From Chthonomonadaceae bacterium (lineage in GTDB: Bacteria; Armatimonadota; Chthonomonadetes; Chthonomonadales; Chthonomonadaceae), in NCBI GenBank assembly GCA_027450145.1, contig DAIDKH010000037.1, positions 1-42,853 on the forward strand: a DNA stretch of 42,853 nucleotides, given 5' to 3'. Of this stretch, positions 18,910-42,853 are shown in pieces (within the stretch, counting starts at the first letter, position 1; every line of letters starts with the position of its first letter). A model generated the notes under the pieces. It was given only the letters and a program-made list of their open reading frames with translations. It made no database searches and was not told the origin of the DNA. Made by a program: the position numbers and the translations under genes.

Positions 18910-19752
18910 GTGCCGCAGGTCTTAGTTCCTGGTAGCAACGGTCGTCATATTGTCATCGCACAAGCGATGCAGGGTGAATCGGCAGATTTATCTGCCTCAG
19001 CACGTCATTCAGAAAAACCGCAGAACAGCCTTGGTGAGTTGCCAGATCCTCACCTCCTTTTTGCAAACTCGATCCTTGTCGGCATCGTTTTAGTTCTTGG
19101 AGGTTTTGCGGTTACCCGAAACCTCAAGAAAATACCGTCAGGTATGCAGAACATCGCTGAAGTGATTGCCGATGGGCTGAATAATTTTGTGCGTGCTAAC
19201 GTAGGGCCGGGTGGTGAAAAATATACCCCCTTAGTTGGCACAATGTTTGTCTACATTTTTGTCATGAATCTCATTGGAATTATTCCTGGATTTCATTCAC
19301 CAACCAGCAACATTACAATTACGCTAGCACTCGGATTTTGCGTCTTTTGTTATGTGCAGTGGGAGGGAATACGTGCTCAGGGGCTTTTTGGTCACTTTAA
19401 GCACTTTATGGGCCCGGTTCCAGCCGCTGCAATCCTGGTAATGCCAATTGAGATAATTTCGGAAATTGCCAAGCCGTTCACCCTTGCCATCCGACTTTTC
19501 GGCAACATCTTTGGTGAAGATGTTATCATGGTCGTCTTGGCCAGCATAGGCACTTTGTTTGGGGGAGCCAAGCTGGGGTGGATACCGATACAATTTCCCA
19601 TACTCCTACTGATGATTTTAACTGATGTGGTGCAGGCTCTGGTGTTTTCCATCCTTACCTGTATCTATCTGTCTCTGGTCACGCAGCACCATGGTGCGGC
19701 GCACGCAGATCATGCTGCTGATCATCATGGTGAGCAGGTGCTAGCTCACTAG
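18910..19752 (+). CDS. atpB: ATP synthase F0 subunit a
   Basis: 280 residues, GTG start with AGGGAGG upstream. Five to six membrane helices lie after a polar N-terminal extension of about 45 residues. The essential proton-path arginine is R195 in LAIRLFGNIFGED, and the last helix keeps the conserved glutamine in VVQALVFSILTCIYLS. It forms the half-channels against the c-ring. The C-terminus is histidine-rich (about 258-280), which is unusual and may bind metal or sense pH. Confidence 0.96.
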   Translation: MPQVLVPGSNGRHIVIAQAMQGESADLSASARHSEKPQNSLGELPDPHLLFANSILVGIVLVLGGFAVTRNLKKIPSGMQNIAEVIADGLNNFVRANVGPGGEKYTPLVGTMFVYIFVMNLIGIIPGFHSPTSNITITLALGFCVFCYVQWEGIRAQGLFGHFKHFMGPVPAAAILVMPIEIISEIAKPFTLAIRLFGNIFGEDVIMVVLASIGTLFGGAKLGWIPIQFPILLLMILTDVVQALVFSILTCIYLSLVTQHHGAAHADHAADHHGEQVLAH

Positions 19753-19797
19753 CGTAGGCTTGTTTGCTGTTAAAAATCCCACTGAATGCTTGAGATA

Positions 19798-19814
19798 ATC
19801 GAAAGGAATTCGAT
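19798..19814 (+). promoter_or_regulatory. Hairpin presenting the atpE ribosome-binding site in its loop
   Basis: Stem ATCGAA (19798-19803) pairs perfectly with TTCGAT (19809-19814), and the five-base loop AGGAA holds the Shine-Dalgarno core. The ATG of atpE follows three bases after the stem. This could favour the high translation that the c-ring needs, or modulate it. Confidence 0.5.
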
Positions 19815-19817
19815 CAC

Positions 19818-20081
19818 ATGGTTTACTTTATGGCTCTTGCCCTCGCGGTAGGACTTGGCGTACCGATCGCAGTTGTTGGCGCAGGCCTTGGTCAGGGCAA
19901 AGCGGCTGCTGCGGCTTTAGAGGGTGTAGCTCGCCAGCCAGAGGCCCAGCCACTGCTGCAGACAATGATGATCCTTGGTCTCGCATTTATTGAGTCCTTG
20001 GTACTGTTTGCTTTTGTTCTCTGCTTCTTGCTGCTTAGTCACTTGCCCGATACAGCAGCTGTACTTAAGGCCATTCACTAG
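19818..20081 (+). CDS. atpE: ATP synthase F0 subunit c
   Basis: 87 residues, two membrane helices joined by the polar loop ARQPEAQ. The ion-binding carboxylate is E59 (AFIES), and Q26 in the first helix lies 33 residues before it, the same spacing as the Q and E that bind Na+ in Ilyobacter tartaricus. S60 follows E59, as in Na+ rings, but L61 and F64 replace the threonine and tyrosine of that site. Coupling ion is therefore not decided by the sequence. Ribosome site lies in a small hairpin loop. Confidence 0.96.
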   Translation: MVYFMALALAVGLGVPIAVVGAGLGQGKAAAAALEGVARQPEAQPLLQTMMILGLAFIESLVLFAFVLCFLLLSHLPDTAAVLKAIH

Positions 20082-20101
20082 GCAGGTTGCCCTGAAATAC
20101 C

Positions 20102-20141
20102 GTCCTGGCTGGTCGGCGCCAACTATGGCGCTGACCAGGAC
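20102..20141 (+). promoter_or_regulatory. Intercistronic hairpin between atpE and the first b-subunit gene
   Basis: An 11-bp stem (20110-20120 with 20127-20137, one G-U pair, 6-base loop) is extended by GTCC/GGAC after a 4-base bulge. No T-tract follows, so it is more likely an RNA-processing or stability element than a terminator, which would fit the high c-subunit demand. Confidence 0.6.
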
Positions 20142-20152
20142 GAGAGGATATT

Positions 20153-20656
20153 ATGTCTGCAATTCAGGAAGCACTGAAGTTCAGTCCTACCGTATTTGTG
20201 TTCCAGATTGTCTTGTTTCTACTGTTACTGCAGGTAATGAATCAGGTTTTCTGGAAGCCGATGTTGGGCCACCTGCAAACCCGGAAAAGCGATACCGAGG
20301 CGCAGTATGCAGCGCGTGACGACCTTCAGGTTCGTATGGAACGTTTGCGCGCCGAGTACCAGGAGAGTATTGCGCGAATTGAAGCAGAGGCGCGAGCAAG
20401 CATTGCCAAGGCAATACATGAGACGCAGCTTGAGCGCGATCGCATTTTGATGGAAGCTCGTCAGGCTGCTGATCAAGCCATCAAGATTGGCATCGAGACT
20501 GCCGAAGCGGAGCGAAATTCAACGCTGGAATTGCTGCGGCCACAGGTAGCCTCTGCCGCGATGTCGGTAGCGGGCGAGGCCTTGGGCGCGGCTGTTAGTG
20601 CAGAGAAACTTCGCACTCACATTGAAGCACATGTTGCGGCGGCTAAGGCGAACTAA
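20153..20656 (+). CDS. atpF: ATP synthase F0 subunit b (b'-like)
   Basis: 167 residues. One N-terminal membrane helix (about 11-30) ends in NQVFWKP, and a long charged helix follows. The FQIVLFLLLL...N.VFWKP segment is closer to cyanobacterial b' than to typical b. It forms half of the peripheral stalk with the second b gene downstream. ATG with GAGAGGA upstream, just after the intercistronic hairpin. Confidence 0.92.
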   Translation: MSAIQEALKFSPTVFVFQIVLFLLLLQVMNQVFWKPMLGHLQTRKSDTEAQYAARDDLQVRMERLRAEYQESIARIEAEARASIAKAIHETQLERDRILMEARQAADQAIKIGIETAEAERNSTLELLRPQVASAAMSVAGEALGAAVSAEKLRTHIEAHVAAAKAN

Positions 20657-20698
20657 CACGGCGGCGGATTCAACAGTTAATAGGAGATATCGGCCTGA

Positions 20699-21223
20699 AT
20701 GGCTCACTTCGTTTTTAATCCATTTCACTTAGAGTACCCGCAGTACAATTTGCCGCTGATACTGGGTTTTATTCTACTGGTTGCTCTATTCTGGAGCAAG
20801 GCAAAGCCTGCTGCCTCCAAGTCACTGGCGGGCCGCGCGGAAAAGGTGCAGGCAGAGATAGAGCGAGCTGAGTCGCTACGGGAACAGGCACAGCGTGTTC
20901 ATGATGAGTACGCTGCACGGCTAGCCGCTATTGAGCGCGAACACCAGGAACAACGGGATCGCTCTGCAGAAGATGCCCGCAGAGCTTGCGACTCCATCTT
21001 GGCGGATGCTCACGAGACTGCAGAACTGATTAAACGCCGGGCGGAGGAAGAGGTCGCACGAGAACGTACACGACAGCGGATCCTTCTACGGCGTCAGGTA
21101 GTGGAGATGACGGTTGCCGCTGCGGAAAGCGCAATCGCCACTCTGCAGACCGACGAATCTCAGCGTGTGCTAATTCAGGCATTTACAGAGCGGCTTGGTT
21201 CCCGGCCAATGGAGAAAAACTGA
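20699..21223 (+). CDS. atpF: ATP synthase F0 subunit b, second type
   Basis: 174 residues: an unusual aromatic N-terminus (HFVFNPFHLEYPQYN), one membrane helix (about 17-34), then a long alanine/glutamate/arginine-rich coiled coil to the end. Two different b-type genes in tandem imply a heterodimeric stalk, as in cyanobacteria, plastids and some purple bacteria. AGGAG lies 12 bases upstream of the ATG. The delta gene starts one base after its stop. Confidence 0.88.
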   Translation: MAHFVFNPFHLEYPQYNLPLILGFILLVALFWSKAKPAASKSLAGRAEKVQAEIERAESLREQAQRVHDEYAARLAAIEREHQEQRDRSAEDARRACDSILADAHETAELIKRRAEEEVARERTRQRILLRRQVVEMTVAAAESAIATLQTDESQRVLIQAFTERLGSRPMEKN

Positions 21224-21224
21224 T

Positions 21225-21773
21225 ATGTCGTCGTTGGATACCCGCGCCGCAAAAAGATATGCCGCTGCTCTGTTTCAGTTTTGCGTGAACGAAGGGTGCG
21301 TAGATGAAGTGTACGCAAACTTAAAGGCTGTGGACGATCTTATGCGTCAATCACCGCAGTTCAAAAACATGTGGTCGAGTCCGCTAATCCCTTCTGGTCG
21401 CAAACGAGCGATTATCGGAAAGCTGTTTGAGGGGAACGTTCATTCTGCAACTCTTGCTTTCTTACGTTTGCTAGTCGATAAGCGACGAGAGGATACCCTT
21501 GCGGAGATACCTGCGGAACTTGGGCAGCTTATAGACATTGCCGCGAACCGGATGCGAGCCGTGGCAACTTTTGCAGTACAGCCTACAGAGGATGAAATCG
21601 CAGGTATCATTGCAAGCCTTAAGCAGCGTACTGGTAAGGACGTTACGGTAAGCGTAAAGGTAGACAAGGCAATTCTTGGTGGGGTAGTGGTGCGGATGGA
21701 TGATATTGTGTTGGATGGCAGCATCCGTGGATCGCTTGAGAAGATCCGTGAACACATGCTTGTTGAGGGATAA
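21225..21773 (+). CDS. atpH: ATP synthase F1 subunit delta
   Basis: 182 residues. It begins with DTRAAKRYAAALF, the typical delta/OSCP opening, and ends with the conserved pattern VSVKVDKAILGGVVVRMDDIVLDGSIRG (quoted in part: DKAILGGVVVRMDD). It joins the peripheral stalk to the top of F1. I chose ATG 21225, with GGAGA at good spacing; a TTG at 21195 would overlap the b gene by ten codons. Confidence 0.95.
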   Translation: MSSLDTRAAKRYAAALFQFCVNEGCVDEVYANLKAVDDLMRQSPQFKNMWSSPLIPSGRKRAIIGKLFEGNVHSATLAFLRLLVDKRREDTLAEIPAELGQLIDIAANRMRAVATFAVQPTEDEIAGIIASLKQRTGKDVTVSVKVDKAILGGVVVRMDDIVLDGSIRGSLEKIREHMLVEG

Positions 21774-21794
21774 ATTCCGTTGGGGAGGACGCGC

Positions 21795-22430
21795 GTGAGA
21801 CGCATAGTTGCTGGAATGTGTGTATGCAGCTTTGTAGTAGCAACGTGTTTCACAATGGCGGCAACCAAGGAACTCGCGGTGAATTATTGGCCGCTGGTAG
21901 CCGGTAGTCGCTGGTCGATGCCTATCCCCGACGAAAATCCTGGCTGGGTTGTTACTTTTCATGTGACGAAGGTAGTTCCTAAGGCGGAAGGTGTTTCCGA
22001 TGTATCGCTGGAGTACTCCATGAATGGCAATCAAGTGCAAAAAGAGGTTTACGAGGTTACTGCCGATATGATTGCCAGAATGAGCGGAGGGCCAAATGGG
22101 GGATCGGACTTTAATCCTCCGATGCCGGTAATAAAACTTCCAATGAATAGCGGTGCCTCGTGGAGCTGGAGCGGCACGATAGGCTCGGGGCTGCTGCAAC
22201 ACCCTGCCGCATCTCAGTTCTCGGTCTCCGGTCCCGTTGAAGTGACGACGCCGGCTGGTAAGTTTAATGCAATTAAAGTACATAGCGCATTGGTGCTAAG
22301 TTCTGGCAAGAAGTCGATTTCGCTGCCCAACGACACCTGGTATGCTCCCGGTGTAGGCATTGTTGAGCAGCAGGCTAAAGTGAACGGTAAGGTTCACACG
22401 TACTATCTTTCTAAATACTCTGTCAAGTAG
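21795..22430 (+). CDS. Secreted DUF3108-like protein embedded in the ATP synthase cluster
   Basis: 211 residues. The GTG at 21795 has GGGGAGG seven to eight bases upstream; the TTG at 21780 lacks a site. Residues 1-22 form a signal peptide. The mature part shows YWPLVAGSRW at the start, VTTPAGKFNAIKV in the middle and TWYAPGVGIVEQ near the end, a pattern of small beta-rich envelope proteins of DUF3108-like type, whose function is unknown. It sits between delta and alpha, 22 bases after delta and 48 before alpha, so it should be co-transcribed. It is not an ATP synthase subunit by any recognised homology. Confidence 0.7.
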   Translation: MRRIVAGMCVCSFVVATCFTMAATKELAVNYWPLVAGSRWSMPIPDENPGWVVTFHVTKVVPKAEGVSDVSLEYSMNGNQVQKEVYEVTADMIARMSGGPNGGSDFNPPMPVIKLPMNSGASWSWSGTIGSGLLQHPAASQFSVSGPVEVTTPAGKFNAIKVHSALVLSSGKKSISLPNDTWYAPGVGIVEQQAKVNGKVHTYYLSKYSVK

Positions 22431-22432
22431 AA

Positions 22433-22456
22433 GCAGGCGTGTACTTGTACACCTGC
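22433..22456 (+). promoter_or_regulatory. Intercistronic hairpin before atpA
   Basis: GCAGG (22433-22437) pairs with CCTGC (22452-22456), and TGTA/TACA pair inside after a 2-base bulge, leaving a tight loop. AAGGAAACGAG and the atpA ATG follow. It resembles the element after atpE in position, directly ahead of a subunit gene. Confidence 0.45.
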
Positions 22457-22478
22457 AAGGAAACGAGAACACAAACAT

Positions 22479-24176
22479 ATGGCAATCCGTCCTGAAGAGA
22501 TTACATCAATATTGGAGCGCGAACTGCAGTCCTATACTCGGGAGATTTCCGAAGTAGGGGTTGGAACCGTGCTGCAGGTTGGTGACGGCATCGCTCGCAT
22601 CTACGGCCTGCAGGAGTGCATGGTATCCGAACTGCTGGAATTTCTGGATGAGGCTGGTAATCCAGTAGCCGATGAAAACGGGAATATTATTCGCGCTATG
22701 GCGTTGAACCTTGAAGAGGATAACGTTGGTGCAATTATCCTCGGACCGTACAATGCCGTGGAAGAGGGTACCACAGTTCGCCGCACAGGACGCATTATCG
22801 AAGTTCCTGTGGGTGAAGCCATGCTTGGCCGCCTTATTAATGCGGCTGGCGACCCACTGGACGGCAAGGGACCAATCGTTACAGACCAGTTTCGGCCTAT
22901 TGAAACTATCGCTCCTGGTGTTGTAGATCGTCAGCCTGTTAAAGAGCCGCTACAAACTGGTATTAAAGCCGTAGACGCACTCGTACCAATTGGCCGCGGC
23001 CAGCGCGAACTTATCATTGGTGACCGCGGTGTCGGTAAAACCGCCATCGCGCTAGATACGATCGTCAATCAGAAGGGCGGAGATGTAATCTGCATTTACG
23101 TAGCAATTGGCCAAAAGGCGACGACGGTGGAGAATGTCCGCCGCGCGTTGGAAGAGGCTGGTGCTATGGATTACACGATCATTGTCGCGGCTACAGCCTC
23201 TGATCCGGCACCAATGCAGTACGTGGCACCCTACACTGGGTGCACGTTGGGTGAGTACTTTAGGGATCAGGGTAAACACGCCCTTGTTATCTACGACGAC
23301 CTGTCAAAGCAGGCAGTTGCCTACCGGCAGGTGTCGCTCCTTCTGCGACGTCCACCAGGACGTGAGGCGTACCCGGGTGACGTCTTCTACATTCACAGCC
23401 GCCTTCTTGAGAGAGCAGCGAAAATGCGAGAAGACTATATTATCGTATCTAAAACGGCGCCTGGTGACACCAAAACAGGAGTGGATGGGGTTGTTTACGA
23501 AGGCGGAGAAGGCCGCAGCCACGGTTCAAAGGTTCTTGCTGGCATGGCGGACAAAGACGGTCTTGAACTACGCCGCGTACCTGGAACGGGCGGCAGCCTA
23601 ACAGCGCTTCCGATCATTGAGACGCTTGCCTCCGACGTCTCTGCATATATCCCTACTAACGTTATCTCCATCACAGATGGACAGATCTTCCTGGAACCAG
23701 ACCTATTCTTCGCCGGTGTCCGACCCGCCATCAACGTGGGTATTTCCGTCAGCCGCGTAGGCAGGTCTGCACAGCCAAACGCCATGAAGAGCGCAAAGGT
23801 CGCTGGAAAGATGCGCCTTGACCTCGCTCAGTTCCGTGAGGTTCAGGCATTTTCCCAGTTTGCATCGGACCTGGATAAGGCGACACGAGATCAGTTGGAG
23901 CGCGGAATGCGGCTGGTTGAAGTGTTAAAGCAGGCACAGTTCAACCCAATGCCTATGGAGCAGATGGTTACCATTATCTACGCCGCCAACAATGGTTACA
24001 TAGACGACGTTCCGGTAGAGTCTGTGCGCAAATTTGAGGAAGAGTTCCACCCATACATGGCGGCAAACTATCCAGATATCATTGAGAAGATTCGAGCAAC
24101 TCGTGATATGGATAACGATACCGAGACCGCGTTGGGTAAAGCGATTGCGGCATTTGCGGCACAGTTCACACCGTAG
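22479..24176 (+). CDS. atpA: ATP synthase F1 subunit alpha with extra loops
   Basis: 565 residues against about 500-515 usual. Conserved parts include the N-terminal [10 protein letters not shown], the non-catalytic nucleotide site (K187), [23 protein letters not shown] and SVSRVG (R426, the residue that reaches into the catalytic site). The P-loop reads GDRGVGKT where alpha subunits normally have GDRQTGKT. Two insertions explain the length: about 13 residues near 57-70 ([11 protein letters not shown]) and about 50 residues (317-369) between RAAK and GGSLTALP. Reading frame is intact. It lies after a non-ATPase gene and before another, an unusual place within an atp operon. Confidence 0.97.
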
Positions 24177-24196
24177 GCTCAAACGCGAACTAATAG

Positions 24197-24225
24197 GCGG
24201 CCGACGAGAGTCCCTCGTTGGCCGC
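24197..24225 (+). terminator. Strong hairpin after atpA (terminator, attenuator or processing site)
   Basis: A 12-bp GC-rich stem (24197-24208 with 24214-24225, one G-U pair) with a 5-base loop begins 20 bases after the atpA stop. Only a weak T-run follows (ATTCTT), so it may attenuate rather than stop the transcript before the downstream fusion gene and atpG. It contains the TTG at 24218, arguing against use of that codon as a start. Confidence 0.6.
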
Positions 24226-24250
24226 ATTCTTAACAGCAGGCAGGGCGCAG

Positions 24251-26197
24251 ATGGCAGGTGGCTCAAATCCTGAAATAGTGGAAGCTATTCGTGTGATAAA
24301 GGATGCACTCGCTCGGATTGACGAGCCTGTGGTAAAGTCCATGGCTGCAGTGCATGCCCTGGAGCGTGAGCTCAACGAAACTGTAGCTCGTCGCGATCAG
24401 TTGCTGGCAAAAGCTGCACAGGCAGAGCTTACTCTAAATCGTCCTGAGCTGGCAGTGACTCTTCGCAATGAGGCTGAACGACTGGGCGCGACGATTGAGG
24501 CCTTAACGGAGCAAACGCAGACCGCGCGAGTTGCTGCAGATGCAGTCCGTGAGCAGGCTCCGGCACGTCGACAACAGCTGCAACTGCAGCTTGCAGAGCT
24601 GATGCGGAAGTCTGTGGAGTACAGCGCGCAGGCCGCCGGCGCCGATAGCGAGTGGCAGCGTGTGAAACGGGTGCAAGGCAATTTAGATACTGCGGATTGG
24701 CAGATTAGTGGCGCCATCGCCGACGAACGAGCGGACAAACTGTTGGAGGAGTTGGAGGCTCGACTAAGCCGCCCTTCCGATCAAGCGGATGTGGTATCCC
24801 CGTTCGAGGGGGATTTACCGCCTGATCCGACTGCCACTGTTGCAGTACAGGAAGGTGCGCCACCTACCTCAACGGTTGTAAGAGCCGTTCCCGCTATCGC
24901 GAACGAAAGCAAGCCGAAAGGATTGACAGCCAACATGACTTCGGATAAAACCAGGTTGCGCGTAGCCGCTATCGGCACGGGCGGTATATTTCGCGGTGCT
25001 CACCTTCCATGCTATTTGGATATCCCGGACGCGCGACTGGCAGCACTATGCGACCCGGATCCCGAGGCACTAAAGCTTGCCAAGCGTAGATTAAATGGGC
25101 TTACCGAAGAGCGGGTGGCGAAGTTACGCGAACAACACGATGACGAAACTGCCGAGCGTCTCCTGCAGGACGTAAGCGATCTTAAGCTTTACTCCGATCT
25201 TGATGAGGTAATAGCCGACGGAAATACTGATTTAGTAGATATTTGCACGCAACCGTTTTTGCACGCTCCACTCGCTATAAAAGCTTTAAATGCTGGGCTG
25301 CACGTTATGTGTGAAAAGCCGATATCCCGCAGTTGGCTTGAGACCGAGGACCTTATTAGCACGTGGAATAGGACAGGTAGATTTTATCAACACAACGAAA
25401 ACTGGCTATTCGAACCAGAATACTATACCGTTCGGAAGTTGATACAGTCCGGTGCAATTGGTGAACTTATCACCATGTTCCTTACGCAAGCTCACGGCGG
25501 CCCGGAGGGCCGCGCCGCGTTCTGGAACCCTGCAATGGGAGGCGGCGGGTCATTGCTGGACAATGGGATTCATGCGATTGGTGCGGCTTGGTTTGTCGCT
25601 GGTCTTAATCTACGTCCCCAGGTGGTGCGGGCTGTCGCGCCCTTTGGGATGTCTACCAGAATGAGCCAACGTATTTTAGATGGTCGCTATCAAGCGGTGC
25701 AGGTGGATGATGACGCACACATCCTGATTCGCTTTGAGGATGGCAGCACTGGATCCTGGTGCACTGCGCACATCGAGGGCTCATGGTCGTTCCAGGATAG
25801 CCCCCCCACGCAGTATATCGGTTCAACCGGGCGAATTGAGATGGCTCACAGTGATGGACGGCAGGTGGCTCGTGTTTTCGACTCTCACGGTAATCACTAT
25901 GACGTCCCGGTTTCGGGGCCCACATGGGTTCATTGGCCCTCCTCGTTTTACGGCGAAATACTTAACATGGTTCAGTGCATTCGTGCAGGCGAACAGTCCA
26001 TTATGACGCCTATGTTTGGTGCAGATTGCTCATCGATTGTTGGGGCTGCCTACCTTTCGGAGAAGTACGGCCGCAAAGCTGTCACACTGGAGGAGTTTCA
26101 ACAGTTCGCGCATTCGATTGCAGCGAAATATCCCGGTGACAAAGCTGCCGCAAACGATGCACTTGTAAATGAACTGCTTAGCGCAGTTCGCAAATAA
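24251..26197 (+). CDS. Coiled-coil/Gfo-Idh-MocA oxidoreductase fusion between atpA and atpG
   Basis: 648 residues from ATG 24251 (CAGGG upstream). Residues 1-190 are a highly charged, alanine-rich coiled coil; 190-228 is a proline/threonine-rich linker; 229-648 is a Gfo/Idh/MocA-family NAD(P)-dependent sugar oxidoreductase. The latter has a Rossmann GTGGIFRG motif (242-249), the catalytic-loop CEKP (K356) and a GGGSLLDNGIHAIG segment (D437, H441). The family oxidises or reduces sugars and inositols. The frame is open throughout, with no stop between parts. An internal ATG (24935) with AAAGGA about 12 bases upstream could also yield the oxidoreductase alone. Fusion of such an enzyme to a coiled coil, within an ATP synthase cluster, is not something I recognise. 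Confidence 0.85.
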   Translation: MAGGSNPEIVEAIRVIKDALARIDEPVVKSMAAVHALERELNETVARRDQLLAKAAQAELTLNRPELAVTLRNEAERLGATIEALTEQTQTARVAADAVREQAPARRQQLQLQLAELMRKSVEYSAQAAGADSEWQRVKRVQGNLDTADWQISGAIADERADKLLEELEARLSRPSDQADVVSPFEGDLPPDPTATVAVQEGAPPTSTVVRAVPAIANESKPKGLTANMTSDKTRLRVAAIGTGGIFRGAHLPCYLDIPDARLAALCDPDPEALKLAKRRLNGLTEERVAKLREQHDDETAERLLQDVSDLKLYSDLDEVIADGNTDLVDICTQPFLHAPLAIKALNAGLHVMCEKPISRSWLETEDLISTWNRTGRFYQHNENWLFEPEYYTVRKLIQSGAIGELITMFLTQAHGGPEGRAAFWNPAMGGGGSLLDNGIHAIGAAWFVAGLNLRPQVVRAVAPFGMSTRMSQRILDGRYQAVQVDDDAHILIRFEDGSTGSWCTAHIEGSWSFQDSPPTQYIGSTGRIEMAHSDGRQVARVFDSHGNHYDVPVSGPTWVHWPSSFYGEILNMVQCIRAGEQSIMTPMFGADCSSIVGAAYLSEKYGRKAVTLEEFQQFAHSIAAKYPGDKAAANDALVNELLSAVRK

Positions 26198-26227
26198 ATC
26201 TGTTCAGTTCAAGGATAACTTTACTAG

Positions 26228-27094
26228 ATGGCAACCATTCGACAGGTTCGACAACGAATTCGCGTAGCGAAGAATATCCAGCAGATTACCAAAGCAATGA
26301 AAATGGTAGCTGCCGCTCGATTGAAACGCGCGCAGGAACATGTGCAGGCGGCAAGGCCCTATGCACAATCGCTTCGTGAGATCATGACCAGTGTCGCCAG
26401 TGCGGCCGGTGGCGAGGTTCAACATCCCCTCCTTGAGCAGCGTGACACGAAGGTAGTTGCGTTTTTCATAGTGACCAGTGACCGTGGTCTGGCTGGATCG
26501 TATAACTCGACGATGTTTAGGCGGGCCGCAGAACTGTTGAGGCATTATGACAAAGCCAACGTAAGGCTGTACATTGTGGGGCGCAAGGGCATTCAGTTCT
26601 TTTCGCGCCGCGGATACAATGTGGCGGGACAATTCTCCTTGGGCAGTGTTGTTACGATTGCGGATGCCCGTAATATCGCCGGTACCCTTCGCACGGCATT
26701 TGAAAGCGGCGAGGTGGATCAGGTGACTATGCTATACACGAGGTTTTATACCGCCATTACTCAGAAAGCAGTGGATGTGCAGTTATTACCCATTCAAACT
26801 CCCGCAGCCGCTGATGCCTCGGAAACGCAGCAGGAAGACTTCATTTTTGAGCCCGATGCTGGCCGCCTACTTGCGTCTCTTCTGCCTCGTTACCTCGAAG
26901 GTCAGGTGTTTCAGGCGTTGCTTGAGTCTTCCGCTAGCGAACATGGATCCAGGATGACCGCTATGTCAAGCGCTACCGATAACGCTGGCAAGATGATACA
27001 AACGCTCACTCTACAAATGAACCGCGTGCGCCAGGCAAATATTACACGCGAAATCTCGGAAATCGTAGGTGGTGCCGAAGCGCTGAAGGGCTAA
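26228..27094 (+). CDS. atpG: ATP synthase F1 subunit gamma
   Basis: 288 residues. The N-terminal helix RIRVAKNIQQITKAMKMVAA and the C-terminal helix with RMTAMSSATDNAGKMI and ARQANITREISEIVGGAEAL-like sequence are diagnostic of the central rotor shaft. ATG with AAGGA about 13 bases upstream. It is the last ATP synthase gene here; beta and epsilon do not follow. Confidence 0.95.
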   Translation: MATIRQVRQRIRVAKNIQQITKAMKMVAAARLKRAQEHVQAARPYAQSLREIMTSVASAAGGEVQHPLLEQRDTKVVAFFIVTSDRGLAGSYNSTMFRRAAELLRHYDKANVRLYIVGRKGIQFFSRRGYNVAGQFSLGSVVTIADARNIAGTLRTAFESGEVDQVTMLYTRFYTAITQKAVDVQLLPIQTPAAADASETQQEDFIFEPDAGRLLASLLPRYLEGQVFQALLESSASEHGSRMTAMSSATDNAGKMIQTLTLQMNRVRQANITREISEIVGGAEALKG

Positions 27095-39347: not shown

Positions 39348-39644
39348 TTAGTTTACAAAAAATGCTCGCATGCTTGGCCCCCACCGGTAGTATTGTGTGC
39401 TGTGGTAAGAATCCAGCAATCCACCATGAAGGTGGTTGGGCGAAGGCGTCGTGCTTGACTTACAGATATCCAGCCCCAATGTACTCACGCGAGTCTCATT
39501 GAAATAGACGCGGACAAACCAATGGCGCTTCAACGGATGGAACACAGTAGTATAAACTGAGCCAAATCCGCACTTCCTCAGCGATCGCTGAACGCATTCA
39601 GGTAACTCGCTTTTGTAAATGTCTGCACTACGGGGTGCCTGCAC
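39348..39644 (-). pseudogene. Open frame continuing the preceding membrane protein after a stop
   Basis: 98 codons, unrecognised, coding-like (HWFVRVYFNETRVSTLGLD). It lies in exactly the same frame as the membrane protein upstream, separated by one TAA (39672-39674) and ten sense codons without a start until the GTG at 39644. Either it is a separate small gene or the two are one gene broken by a nonsense mutation. No strong ribosome site is seen before GTG 39644. Confidence 0.4.
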
Positions 39645-39671
39645 GTAGTACTTTTGCTTGGATGATACCTG

Positions 39672-40082
39672 TTAGAGTGGAACCGTAAGAATGTGATCTG
39701 CCCATTCCTGCAAGTACGGCCGGCCACAAAGCTGGTGAACTCGAAGCTTCAAACCGAGATCTGCACAATCCGTGTACATACTGGTAACGAAATACAAAAC
39801 AGGTGCGATGAGCACACATGCCGTCAATGCCGCTCCTGTTGAGCGCCTTAGTCGTATTAGTTTGTCGAATGACAAACATGACGACAGCCCAAAAATGACC
39901 GCCAGAATGGCTGGTTGCAAGAAATCACAAATAAAACCAAAGCCTGTACCCGCGAATCCCCAGCTAAACGCACCGCAGCAAAAGACTGGTTCAACTATCA
40001 TCCACAAAACCTGGCGCTGGATAATGCTAACGAGTTCTGGCTCGGTTGGCCAATCGCCAAGGCAGCGCAGATACTTTCTCAT
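39672..40082 (-). CDS. Small membrane protein, candidate immunity protein
   Basis: 136 residues with about three membrane helices (around 28-45, 50-70 and 84-102) and several cysteines. The ATG overlaps the stop of the preceding frame by four bases (ATGA), as expected for an effector tail followed by its immunity protein. No family is recognised, and the function is inferred only from the RHS context. It may originally have run on into the 39348-39671 frame. Confidence 0.5.
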   Translation of the reverse strand: MRKYLRCLGDWPTEPELVSIIQRQVLWMIVEPVFCCGAFSWGFAGTGFGFICDFLQPAILAVIFGLSSCLSFDKLIRLRRSTGAALTACVLIAPVLYFVTSMYTDCADLGLKLRVHQLCGRPYLQEWADHILTVPL

Positions 40083-40519
40083 TGACGAACGCAGCCAATA
40101 TAGAATGGCGGGTCACCAGGTTTCCAAACAATCTTAAATACTGCGCGGTTCGTTGTTACTGCCGACCAGGGGCCATCTGGAATTACCGGGCAATTATCCA
40201 GGTATTTCGCCGTCAACGTGGTGTCCGGCGTCGTAGCTGTTGGCCAACTAAGGTAGCCAGCATCCTCCCGGGCAGCTGCGGTCAACACATTCATACAAAA
40301 ATGTAGCCACTTCCAGTCTCTAATTACGTAGTTCATTAGCGAGTCGCTGAGGTCACACAGCTTGTCCAACACGCCAAAAAGAACGTAATTGACATCCCAC
40401 GGCATATGGCACCGACCGCGAACAGATACAGAGGGAGAAGAGTTACCGGGTACAGCGCACCCGTTGTTCGCGTAATCGGGTATCCATCGCCATTTCTCAT
40501 CACCCGCCTGCGCACTCAA
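40079..40519 (-). CDS. Candidate RHS C-terminal effector tail, probably decayed
   Basis: 146 codons from a TTG (40519), cysteine- and tryptophan-rich (MPWDVNYVLFGVLDKL, DWKWLHFCMNVL, GPWSAVTTNRAVFKIVW). In-frame sequence upstream of the TTG is also coding-like and crosses a TAG at 40544-40546 back to about 40650 (TKVNAKFKPCNPVSKM). This suggests it once formed the tail of the RHS fragment that now stops at 40633, through a frame change and a nonsense codon. No toxin family is recognised. It is coupled to the membrane protein at 39672-40082. Confidence 0.45.
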   Translation of the reverse strand: MSAQAGDEKWRWIPDYANNGCAVPGNSSPSVSVRGRCHMPWDVNYVLFGVLDKLCDLSDSLMNYVIRDWKWLHFCMNVLTAAAREDAGYLSWPTATTPDTTLTAKYLDNCPVIPDGPWSAVTTNRAVFKIVWKPGDPPFYIGCVRQ

Positions 40520-40632
40520 TTGTACGATATCCCATGCGGACCCCTACAGAAATGGATTCAATGTCGTCAGGGCATCGCAATGTTTCATCTTGGAAACAGG
40601 ATTACAAGGTTTGAATTTCGCGTTAACCTTGG

Positions 40633-41103
40633 TCAATGTATTTGTGAGCAGCAAAACGATCCTTGGTCCACATCAGGGTTTCCTGAACAGGCGGCACGGA
40701 TTGTTGCTATCTTTCCAATTGGATCATTTAAAACCTGCGGCATAACCTGGGCGTACAGGTAAAGGTTACGCACTACATGGATCGGGTCCTCGCTAAGCCA
40801 CCGGTCTGTGCCCACCGCCAGCCAGCGGGCGCGCACGTACTGCACGGCGGTGCTGTCGCGGTAGTAGCCGTACTCGCCTACGTACCGGTAGGCGTTGGTG
40901 CTGCCGTTACCGCCTTGCCAAGCGGTGCCAAAAGCCAGGTAGGCGTACGCGTCCGTAACCGCGCCGGCAGGGTTGGTGAGTATTGGCGTGCTGCCCTGGC
41001 TGTCGAAACCGTAAAACGATGACGACGGCGAGTTCCAGCTATCCACCAGCTGCGCCTGCTGCCACTGCGATACCAGGCCGCCCCACGTACCCGGTTTGTA
41101 AGC
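40633..41103 (-). pseudogene. Displaced RHS-core C-terminal fragment (first cassette)
   Basis: The RHS frame is recognisable from about 41103 (PAYKPGTWGGLVSQWQQ) through YGFDSQGSTPILTN, AYRYVGEYGYYRDS, QYVRARWLAVGTDRWLSEDP, NLYLYAQ and a DPIGK that stands for the usual DPSG end of the core. It then enters a short tail and stops at 40633. An in-frame TAG lies just upstream of the matching part, so no full RHS gene is attached. Typical start signals are absent; this is a captured tip, not a complete gene. It holds one copy of the 120-bp repeat. Confidence 0.75.
40784..40903 (-). repeat. 120-bp RHS-core direct repeat, copy 1
   Basis: It encodes on the minus strand the segment from NAYRYVGEYG to WLSEDP of the RHS core and matches 42140-42259 over all 120 bases with about five differences. 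Such near-identity beside unrelated tails points to recombination between RHS tips. Confidence 0.9.
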
Positions 41104-41599
41104 CGGCAGCTACGTTATGGCGTTTGTCCATACCTTGGATAGGTTTTGATGCCGCCTCGTAACCAGCGTTGTATGCGCGGATAAAAGTCTCATTGATTAT
41201 GTGGTCATTCGGTGCGTGAAGTATTCTATTTAATAACGGCATCGACCGCTTGTCTTGAGTCCCGTTTACGTTAATGTTAAAGCCAATATAAACTTCTATC
41301 ATGGCATTATCCCTAGCGAAGGTCTTACGATAATCGGTCAAATTATGTACGCAGTCGTACTTTCCGCGGGAGAACGCGTACCTATAGACATCTTTTATGA
41401 GACCTGCACTATCGCTGGTGTACTTTGTTGGGGCGTTGGTATATGCTTCAGTGCGCTTGACGGTCCGCCTAATTACGCCCTTTAAAAGTAGATTTGCCAC
41501 CATAAGGAGTGCGCCAACAATTACGACAGTGGAGCAACATAATGTTAAACGCTGGCTTCGGTTTTTAAGTTTTGCTTCCCGATGGCTGGCTCGGTTCAT
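41039..41599 (-). CDS. Membrane-anchored candidate immunity protein with chimeric C-terminus
   Basis: 186 residues from ATG 41599, which overlaps the stop of the cysteine-rich RHS tail by four bases (ATGA). There is a basic N-terminus, one membrane helix (about 21-42), then a soluble domain (about 55-160), so it is anchored with the domain probably outside. The final 22 or so residues are read from the other frame of the inserted RHS fragment at 41103-41039, so the natural C-terminus appears to have been replaced when that cassette joined. No family is recognised; the immunity role is inferred from position. Confidence 0.55.
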   Translation of the reverse strand: MNRASHREAKLKNRSQRLTLCCSTVVIVGALLMVANLLLKGVIRRTVKRTEAYTNAPTKYTSDSAGLIKDVYRYAFSRGKYDCVHNLTDYRKTFARDNAMIEVYIGFNINVNGTQDKRSMPLLNRILHAPNDHIINETFIRAYNAGYEAASKPIQGMDKRHNVAAGLQTGYVGRPGIAVAAGAAGG

Positions 41600-42288
41600 A
41601 ATGGTCCACCCGGCAATCCGCCCTTCTTCGGAACGCAACATAGGTCTTGGCCAAAATGAATTCGCATCTTTAAGCTGCCACCAGACGGCGGAAATGATTT
41701 ACCCTTACCACTACACACGGTATTACAGACCGATTTTTTGCAGAGGCTCAATCCTGTTTGCTCAGCGACGACCATAGCGTCACAACATTTGGCCGGCTCA
41801 CCCTTGCATCGGGAACAGATTCTATTCGCTTGCTGCCACTCGGTAATGTCGCGGTTTACCCAGTGATGAAACATGCATTTGTTTAGGCAGTCCATGCACA
41901 TGCGCATGCCCTTTGTGAAATCGTGGATTGTAATGATGTTGCATACCATAGCAGACACCCGGCAAGCACAATTGTCAAACCATAGTCCGGTCTTTTTAGC
42001 TGCTGCACAATATTCGGCGGTTCGATTTCTACAAGCTCCCGGAACATAGTGGCATTTTAGCCCGCTCGGGTCCCGCCTAGCCACCGGTTCATTGCCCACA
42101 TAGCGGTAGAGGTTGAAGTCGTCAGCCCCGAAGCGCAGCGGGTCCTCGCTAAGCCACCGGCCTGTGCCCACTGCCAGCCAGCGGGCGCGCACGTACTGCA
42201 AGACGGCGCTGTCGCGGTAGTAGCCGTACTCGCCTACGTACCGGTAGGCGTTGGTGCTGGTTCGCCAGCCAGACTGAACAGGCGTAAA
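41596..42288 (-). CDS. RHS tip with cysteine-rich C-terminal tail (second cassette)
   Basis: The frame follows directly after the stop of the Rpn-like gene and reads RHS core (TSTNAYRYVGEYGYYRDS, RARWLAVGTGRWLSEDP, LYRYVGNEPVARRDPSGL) and then a 155-residue tail with about 18 cysteines in pairs such as CAC, CMDC, CSRC, CC. DPSGL is the classical boundary between RHS core and variable effector tail. Only about 50 core residues are present, so it is an orphan tip; a TTG at 42201 is the only likely internal start. The tail is unrecognised. The downstream gene overlaps by ATGA. Confidence 0.65.
   Translation of the reverse strand, partial: FTPVQSGWRTSTNAYRYVGEYGYYRDSAVLQYVRARWLAVGTGRWLSEDPLRFGADDFNLYRYVGNEPVARRDPSGLKCHYVPGACRNRTAEYCAAAKKTGLWFDNCACRVSAMVCNIITIHDFTKGMRMCMDCLNKCMFHHWVNRDITEWQQANRICSRCKGEPAKCCDAMVVAEQTGLSLCKKSVCNTVCSGKGKSFPPSGGSLKMRIHFGQDLCCVPKKGGLPGGPL
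42140..42259 (-). repeat. 120-bp RHS-core direct repeat, copy 2
   Basis: Same orientation and length as copy 1 at 40784-40903, about 96 percent identical by eye. It ends within 30 bases of the Rpn-like gene. Confidence 0.9.
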
Positions 42289-42853
42289 CTAGCCAAGCAG
42301 CTCCGGCCAGCTACTTACGTCTAACACTCGCTCTATGAGGCTCTCTATACGGCTCAAATCATCTATTGAACTGATTTGTGAGTGAATATCACTGCCAGCG
42401 GCACCAAATCGCCGCTCGCCAAGCCTTATCAGTAATTTGCGACCCTCTTCCAGGCCACCTTCTGCTTTGCCTTCTGCCTTACCCTCTCGGCGACCTACAA
42501 GTTTGCCCTTCCTTATTCCTTCTTCTAGAGTCGCCATGTAGGTCGTTGAATCTTTAAGATCTAGCATAATACCTCCCATGAGCTGGTTCGCCTGCTCATT
42601 ACTCATCGTCAATCCCAACAAGTATCTCGTTTTTTCCCAAATCTCAAGGCGATCGGAAATCGATACGCCTTCAACGTTTAGCCGTTCCTGCATTTGGTGA
42701 AACAGGCTTGGCAGATCGCCGTTAGGTACCGAACATAATGGCGCCAAAGGCATCATATGCACAGGTTGACGTATGACTGTTATTGCATCCACTTCCCAAA
42801 GACGCACTATATGATACGCGAACCGGATGCCCCTTGATTCCAGTACGCCGCTT
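42289..42853 (-). CDS. Rpn-family nuclease/transposase-like protein, C-terminal part (cut by window edge)
   Basis: The frame is open to the right edge, so the 5' end is missing; at least 187 residues are present. YHIVRLWEVDA followed by PLAPLC, a charged low-complexity hinge (EGKAEGKAEGGLEEG), and the C-terminal DUF4351-like domain (LIRLGERRFG...I...IESLIERVLDVSSWPELL) fit the Rpn/YhgA-like PD-(D/E)XK family often found near recombination hot spots. The catalytic part lies outside the window. Its stop codon directly abuts the RHS tip. Confidence 0.8.
   Translation of the reverse strand, partial: SGVLESRGIRFAYHIVRLWEVDAITVIRQPVHMMPLAPLCSVPNGDLPSLFHQMQERLNVEGVSISDRLEIWEKTRYLLGLTMSNEQANQLMGGIMLDLKDSTTYMATLEEGIRKGKLVGRREGKAEGKAEGGLEEGRKLLIRLGERRFGAAGSDIHSQISSIDDLSRIESLIERVLDVSSWPELLG

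Follow-up and report, generated by a model that had tools for sequence, protein, structure and literature searches.

In Salmonella, orphan rhs fragments share coding sequence with the main rhs gene, through which they recombine with it before being deployed (PMC3967940). Furthermore, immunity genes of Vibrio cholerae are kept once the toxin is lost (PMC5361080). Here, we report on a comparable locus at one end of a contig from a Chthonomonadaceae bacterium (GenBank assembly GCA_027450145.1, contig DAIDKH010000037.1), of which the whole analysed stretch of 42,853 nucleotides is called the window. The genome of the window is a draft assembly, whose contigs are designated C37 (the window) and so on; G001 stands for the genome of a sister species. 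We consider it very probable that the region belongs to an array of orphan RHS C-terminal toxin/immunity modules. In such a module, the terminal part of an RHS core would lead into an exchangeable toxin tip, to which the gene for a membrane-bound immunity protein is coupled by an ATGA overlap. From this genomic context, we infer toxin and immunity roles for the tips and partners, respectively. Elsewhere in the window, ATP synthase genes were recognised by eye in the translations (18910-27094), with an unrelated, oxidoreductase-like gene (24218-26197) between the genes for the alpha and gamma subunits.

All features of the two cassettes are located on the minus strand (Table 1). The original prediction stated that two 120-bp copies of an RHS core with about five differences lead via a DP(I/S)G boundary into unrelated tails, each followed by an overlapping membrane protein, and these statements were confirmed. 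Exactly 5 mismatches separate the two 120-bp blocks, and for a match of this length with 96% identity the chance expectation in the genome is E ~1e-50. Outside the blocks, the likeness drops to that of random sequence within 20 bases in both directions. Both fragments matched the Rhs_assc_core model (TIGR03696) above its curated cut-off, at 40714-40941 and 42058-42273. The boundary motif reads DPIG in cassette 1 and DPSGL in cassette 2, and the tails beyond it are unrelated to each other. The identical block ends with SEDP(I/L) approximately 20 codons upstream of DPxG, which places the switch point within the core. Synonymous and non-synonymous differences among the core copies are too few to show any selection. 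In the draft genome, 15 copies of the 120-bp block were counted, some of them partial, and the profile search gave 23 Rhs_assc_core hits there. RHS cores above the cut-off were found in 50 of the 61 genomes searched, the window's genome counted among them.

Table 1. Features of the cassette region in the window and copies of the start leader on other contigs of the same genome.
Feature	Position	Strand	Evidence or remark
Partner 1, candidate immunity protein	39348..40082	-	2-3 TM helices and C-terminal domain; in-frame stop 39672-39674
Tail 1, candidate toxin tip, broken	40079..40713	-	stop-free homologues continuing RHS cores in frame (G028, G026, G082)
RHS-core fragment, cassette 1, directly joined to end of partner 2, ends DPIG	40714..41100	-	TIGR03696 above cut-off
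120-bp core repeat, copy 1	40784..40903	-	block comparison with copy 2
Partner 2, candidate immunity protein	41039..41599	-	one N-terminal TM helix and predicted outside domain
Tail 2, candidate toxin tip, 153 aa, 18 cysteines, own stop	41596..42057	-	homologues behind RHS cores in G148, G158, G036
RHS-core fragment, cassette 2, ends DPSGL	42058..42288	-	TIGR03696 E=1.1e-14
120-bp core repeat, copy 2	42140..42259	-	115/120 identical to copy 1
Rpn-like (PD-(D/E)XK) nuclease gene, C-terminal part, DUF4351	42289..42852	-	PF14261 E=6e-6
Leader copies	C127:2857-2985, C127:4756-4889, C109:5758-5877(-), C109:129-249(-), C71:19647-19764, C30:131-249(-)		

The ATGA overlaps comprise the stop of tail 1 (40079-40081) with the ATG of partner 1 (40080-40082), and the stop of tail 2 (41596-41598) with the ATG of partner 2 (41597-41599); TM helices are present in both partners. 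Cassette 2 has an uninterrupted reading frame but lacks its own start. The ORF of partner 2 meets no stop before the next core, enters the DNA of that core in another frame and terminates at 41039. Cassette 1 has decayed. The frame coming from its core stops at 40633 and the remainder of tail 1 is found in another frame, which is interrupted a second time by an in-frame TAG at approximately 40544-40546, just upstream of residue 1 of the frame 40082-40543; a stop is also present in partner 1. The layout of two tails with two partners was predicted correctly, but tail 1 is not a single frame, partner 1 is not intact, and the original prediction had missed both the decay of cassette 1 and the much larger set to which the array belongs. 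The two toxin lesions and the partner lesion of cassette 1, together with a module at C109:5426 in which the tail is cut off after 14 residues, are what one would expect if the modules were plain decaying debris, left from the duplication of RHS ends and now without function. However, the fully open cassette 2 and the open tails and partners in most modules of this core family make such an explanation rather unlikely.

Orphan modules imply that the tails should also occur behind RHS cores elsewhere, which is the case for both families. Homologues of tail 1 form stop-free core-to-tail ORFs in G028 (576 aa), G026 (456 aa) and G082 (358 aa), which represent three genera, with G026 belonging to the same order as the window's genome, the Chthonomonadales. 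A scan of 84,980 species (one genome per species) gave at least four records with tail 1 relatives, two of them named Armatimonadetes or Chthonomonas, a lower bound, because a single peptide pattern was used. For tail 2, the homologues found in G148, G036 and G158 share the motifs CxxRTxxYC, CRVS, CxDCxNKC and EQTxLxxC in addition to the cysteines; matches with E ~0.002 to 0.009 (G091, G167, G017, G102, G108, G160, G173) were left out of the counts. G148 encodes a 1093-aa RHS body directly followed by a tip ORF with the tail 2 homologue and its own multi-TM partner, which overlaps the end of the tip, and then a second cassette with a different cysteine-rich tail and a larger partner. The RHS body and the first tip overlap there by approximately 30 bases in different frames (locus L070, 10244-10275, G148:C10), which could be a decayed join, a re-initiation or a frameshift site. 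In G036 the partner is a WD40 protein, and the homologue in G158 is a broken copy. Generally, tail 1 or tail 2 was seen in the genomes searched only on RHS fragments or, in G148, with body and tip in different frames.

The co-occurrence of tails and partners behind RHS cores had been proposed as a check. The tails indeed stand behind RHS cores with a downstream partner, but the partner families differ between genomes. The gene after tail 1 encodes a protein with a single TM helix in G028, a multi-TM protein in G082, and a protein with an N-terminal hydrophobic stretch and pentapeptide repeats in G026; these are different families, yet all look membrane-bound or exported. Different partner families behind one tail family fit polymorphic toxins, but weaken the pairing argument. 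Partner 1 is 39% identical over its full length of 244 aa to an intact 244-aa homologue on contig C57 of G001, where it follows a core and only the last approximately 45 residues of tail 1. An intact partner beside a toxin remnant is as expected of orphan immunity. Two more partner-1-like genes exist on C109 of the window's genome, one of which aligns to this G001:C57 partner (27%) and the other to the tail 1 partner in G001:C137 (40%).

As claimed in the original prediction, tails and partners are unrecognised: tails 1 and 2 gave no match in Pfam, NCBIfam, PADLOC or a PDB sequence search, and partners 1 and 2 none in Pfam or NCBIfam. PDB profile matches to penicillin acylase (E ~0.6) were weak and taken as chance. 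The AlphaFold2 models were unusable, with a mean pLDDT of 49.7 for tail 1 (5 sequences) and 41.2 for tail 2 (single sequence), and a Foldseek search of the tail 1 model, at this pLDDT, against the PDB gave a best E of 1.6. Because neither tail matches an enzymatic family, one might take the tails for extracellular adhesins or for signalling domains, next to which the membrane proteins would be unrelated neighbours. This is very unlikely, since the ATGA overlaps tie tails to partners, the partner was kept in G001:C57 although the tail was deleted, the gene after tail family 1 has membrane or export features in every case despite the differing partner families, and a lysozyme-like GYGLLQI motif occurs in sibling tails.

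The orphan-module reading also implies that the core should recur in a longer RHS gene elsewhere in the genome, and such a gene was found. An RHS ORF of at least 1606 aa (C57:22754-27571), with 19 RHS repeats and N_BRCA1_IG domains, shares 85% identity with the window core over the 61 core residues before it breaks off inside the core at the contig end. C127, C68 and C132 end in the same core as well, as expected if the assembler collapses a repeat; since the assembly breaks at the cores, the link between the C57 gene and the array is not a physical one. The core shared with C57 and the presence of both tail families behind RHS cores elsewhere support the reading as orphan modules and, with it, the earlier suggestion of displaced RHS tips stored with their immunity genes. 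The original prediction had named two outcomes that would refute it, the lack of any RHS gene sharing this core and tails that never stand at RHS C-termini; both were checked and neither was obtained. In the proposed mechanism, homologous recombination through the shared core would join any open module to the long RHS gene on C57, with the immunity gene travelling along, which fits the toxin-then-immunity order (PMC3482391). The C57 RHS protein would supply expression and delivery for the joined tip, while the former tip would be pushed down the array and decay. By likeness to Salmonella, we infer that the recombination step could proceed in the same manner here.

The modules may alternatively be individually expressed toxin genes, in which a small core-tip protein is made from its own leader and no full-length RHS is needed. 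Several cassettes elsewhere in the window's genome indeed carry, before the RHS-core fragment, a leader of approximately 120 bp with GAGG and an ATG or TTG start. Its six strong copies (Table 1) are 85-100% identical to one of them and all situated by RHS arrays or, in the case of C30, at a contig end; two weaker copies exist in the sister species. However, both window cassettes are devoid of the leader, with the Rpn-like stop preceding cassette 2 in the same frame and partner 2 joined directly to cassette 1. Moreover, no export signal was found ahead of the core, and the leader is confined to this genus, i.e. to 2 of the 61 genomes. Hence, we regard individual expression as unlikely and the use of the modules as orphans of a long RHS gene as the better explanation.

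Upstream of cassette 2, the frame of the Rpn-like gene continues into the core in the same frame, with a single TAG between them. We named the gene only Rpn-like, because its complete homologue in the sister species matched TIGR01784 (E=2e-10) with 40.8 bits, below the curated cut-off of 52.1. The sole Rpn N-terminus found in the window's genome is located on C71 behind a core fragment (copy at C71:19904-20125), and there are two C-termini, on C37 and on C109 (7.8-8.1 kb), each upstream of a core. A join of C71 and C37 through a split Rpn gene was considered, for which the halves fit the sister homologue with approximately 30 residues missing, but the second C-terminus on C109 makes it ambiguous. 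In E. coli, the Rpn proteins act as DNA endonucleases and have been connected with RecA-independent transfer (PMC5350276) as well as with phage defence (PMC10327210). The gene in the window resembles them in its variable charged-repeat region near the C-terminus, but differs in its position between RHS-core fragments and its score below the curated Rpn cut-off. The protein may be a tip shuffler, itself a tip, or a passenger.

The content of such arrays changes. A locus in G001, whose flanking genes match C68 of the window's genome, contains none of the C68 cassettes; in their place are tail 1, a gene resembling partner 1 and an Rpn-like gene, and the different cassettes at syntenic positions show turnover. 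Among the sibling tails, cysteine-rich ones on C127 (L009, 3000-3712) and C94 (L014, 8.0-8.4 kb) have a motif (GYGLLQI / YGLLQVG) that recalls lytic transglycosylases. Another tail family (CLLGVWRNLPAW) is found at C109:1314-2672, C132:1616-3867, C94:8756-9912 and in G001:C57, and its partners are soluble-looking, repeat-like and partly duplicated in tandem.

The tails behind this core in the window's genome contain on average 10.5% cysteine (individual values 3.7-14.8), compared to 0.3% in tails behind a second core type and 1.6% in long ORFs of the window. Most tips of this core family are rich in cysteine, and many of their partners are anchored in the membrane, exported or polytopic, which suggests that the tips probably act outside the cytoplasm, in the envelope or periplasm. 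Among 120 tails from 55 RHS loci of the phylum, the cysteine content was uniform within a locus and differed between arrays of one genome. The within-locus sum of squares was 20 versus a permuted mean of 89, or of 61 when permuted within genomes, and was reached in 0 of 5000 permutations in both cases. When each BLAST cluster was represented by a single tail (78 tails), the observed value was reached in 47 of 5000 within-genome permutations, so that the signal is weaker but still there. A hydrophobic N-terminus was found in 22 of 39 partners of cysteine-rich tails and in 9 of 38 others (Fisher p=0.005). In this survey the loci were hand-chosen from match lists, the partners were assigned by a simple ORF rule and the thresholds were set by the analyst; the uniformity per array is a lead and not settled. 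It suggests a rule in which the choice of target compartment lies with the delivery protein and its tip store is sorted to match. In a broader and rather doubtful form, RHS carriers of Armatimonadota would each keep a compartment-specific tip library, side by side but unmixed within one genome, with cysteine-rich tips and membrane or exported immunity proteins for targets outside the cytoplasm and cysteine-free tips for targets inside; this genus would add start leaders, and tips may be shuffled with the help of the embedded Rpn-like nuclease. The text of PMC3482391 as searched contains neither the word disulfide nor cysteine-rich. Lipocone/Wnt-type toxins were considered, as animal Wnts are cysteine-rich, but the cysteine-rich extensions are attributed to animal Wnts only (PMC12419801) and no link is claimed.

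The kind of system described here is already known, and our findings extend orphan RHS toxin/immunity arrays to the Armatimonadota, in which RHS cores are very common, and add two tail and two partner families, none of which has a curated model. The orphan rhs-CT/rhsI modules of Salmonella LT2 (Koskiniemi et al. 2014, PMC3967940) share the displaced core fragment, the DPxG motif, the variable tip, the adjacent immunity gene and a core as in the long rhs gene. Compared to those of Enterobacteriaceae, however, the modules belong to a different phylum and to different tail families and are many more, spread over several contigs; moreover, some have a start leader, whereas the Salmonella orphans are usually without initiation signals. 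With the toxin systems of PMC3482391 (2012), they have in common the toxin-then-immunity order and cassettes that are swapped onto a constant carrier, but the tail and partner families are without a Pfam or NCBIfam model. Finally, as in the T6SS orphan immunity arrays of Vibrio cholerae (Kirchberger et al. 2017, PMC5361080), an immunity gene can outlive its effector, as seen in G001:C57, but the array described here is based on RHS cores, occurs in another phylum and has largely retained its tips.
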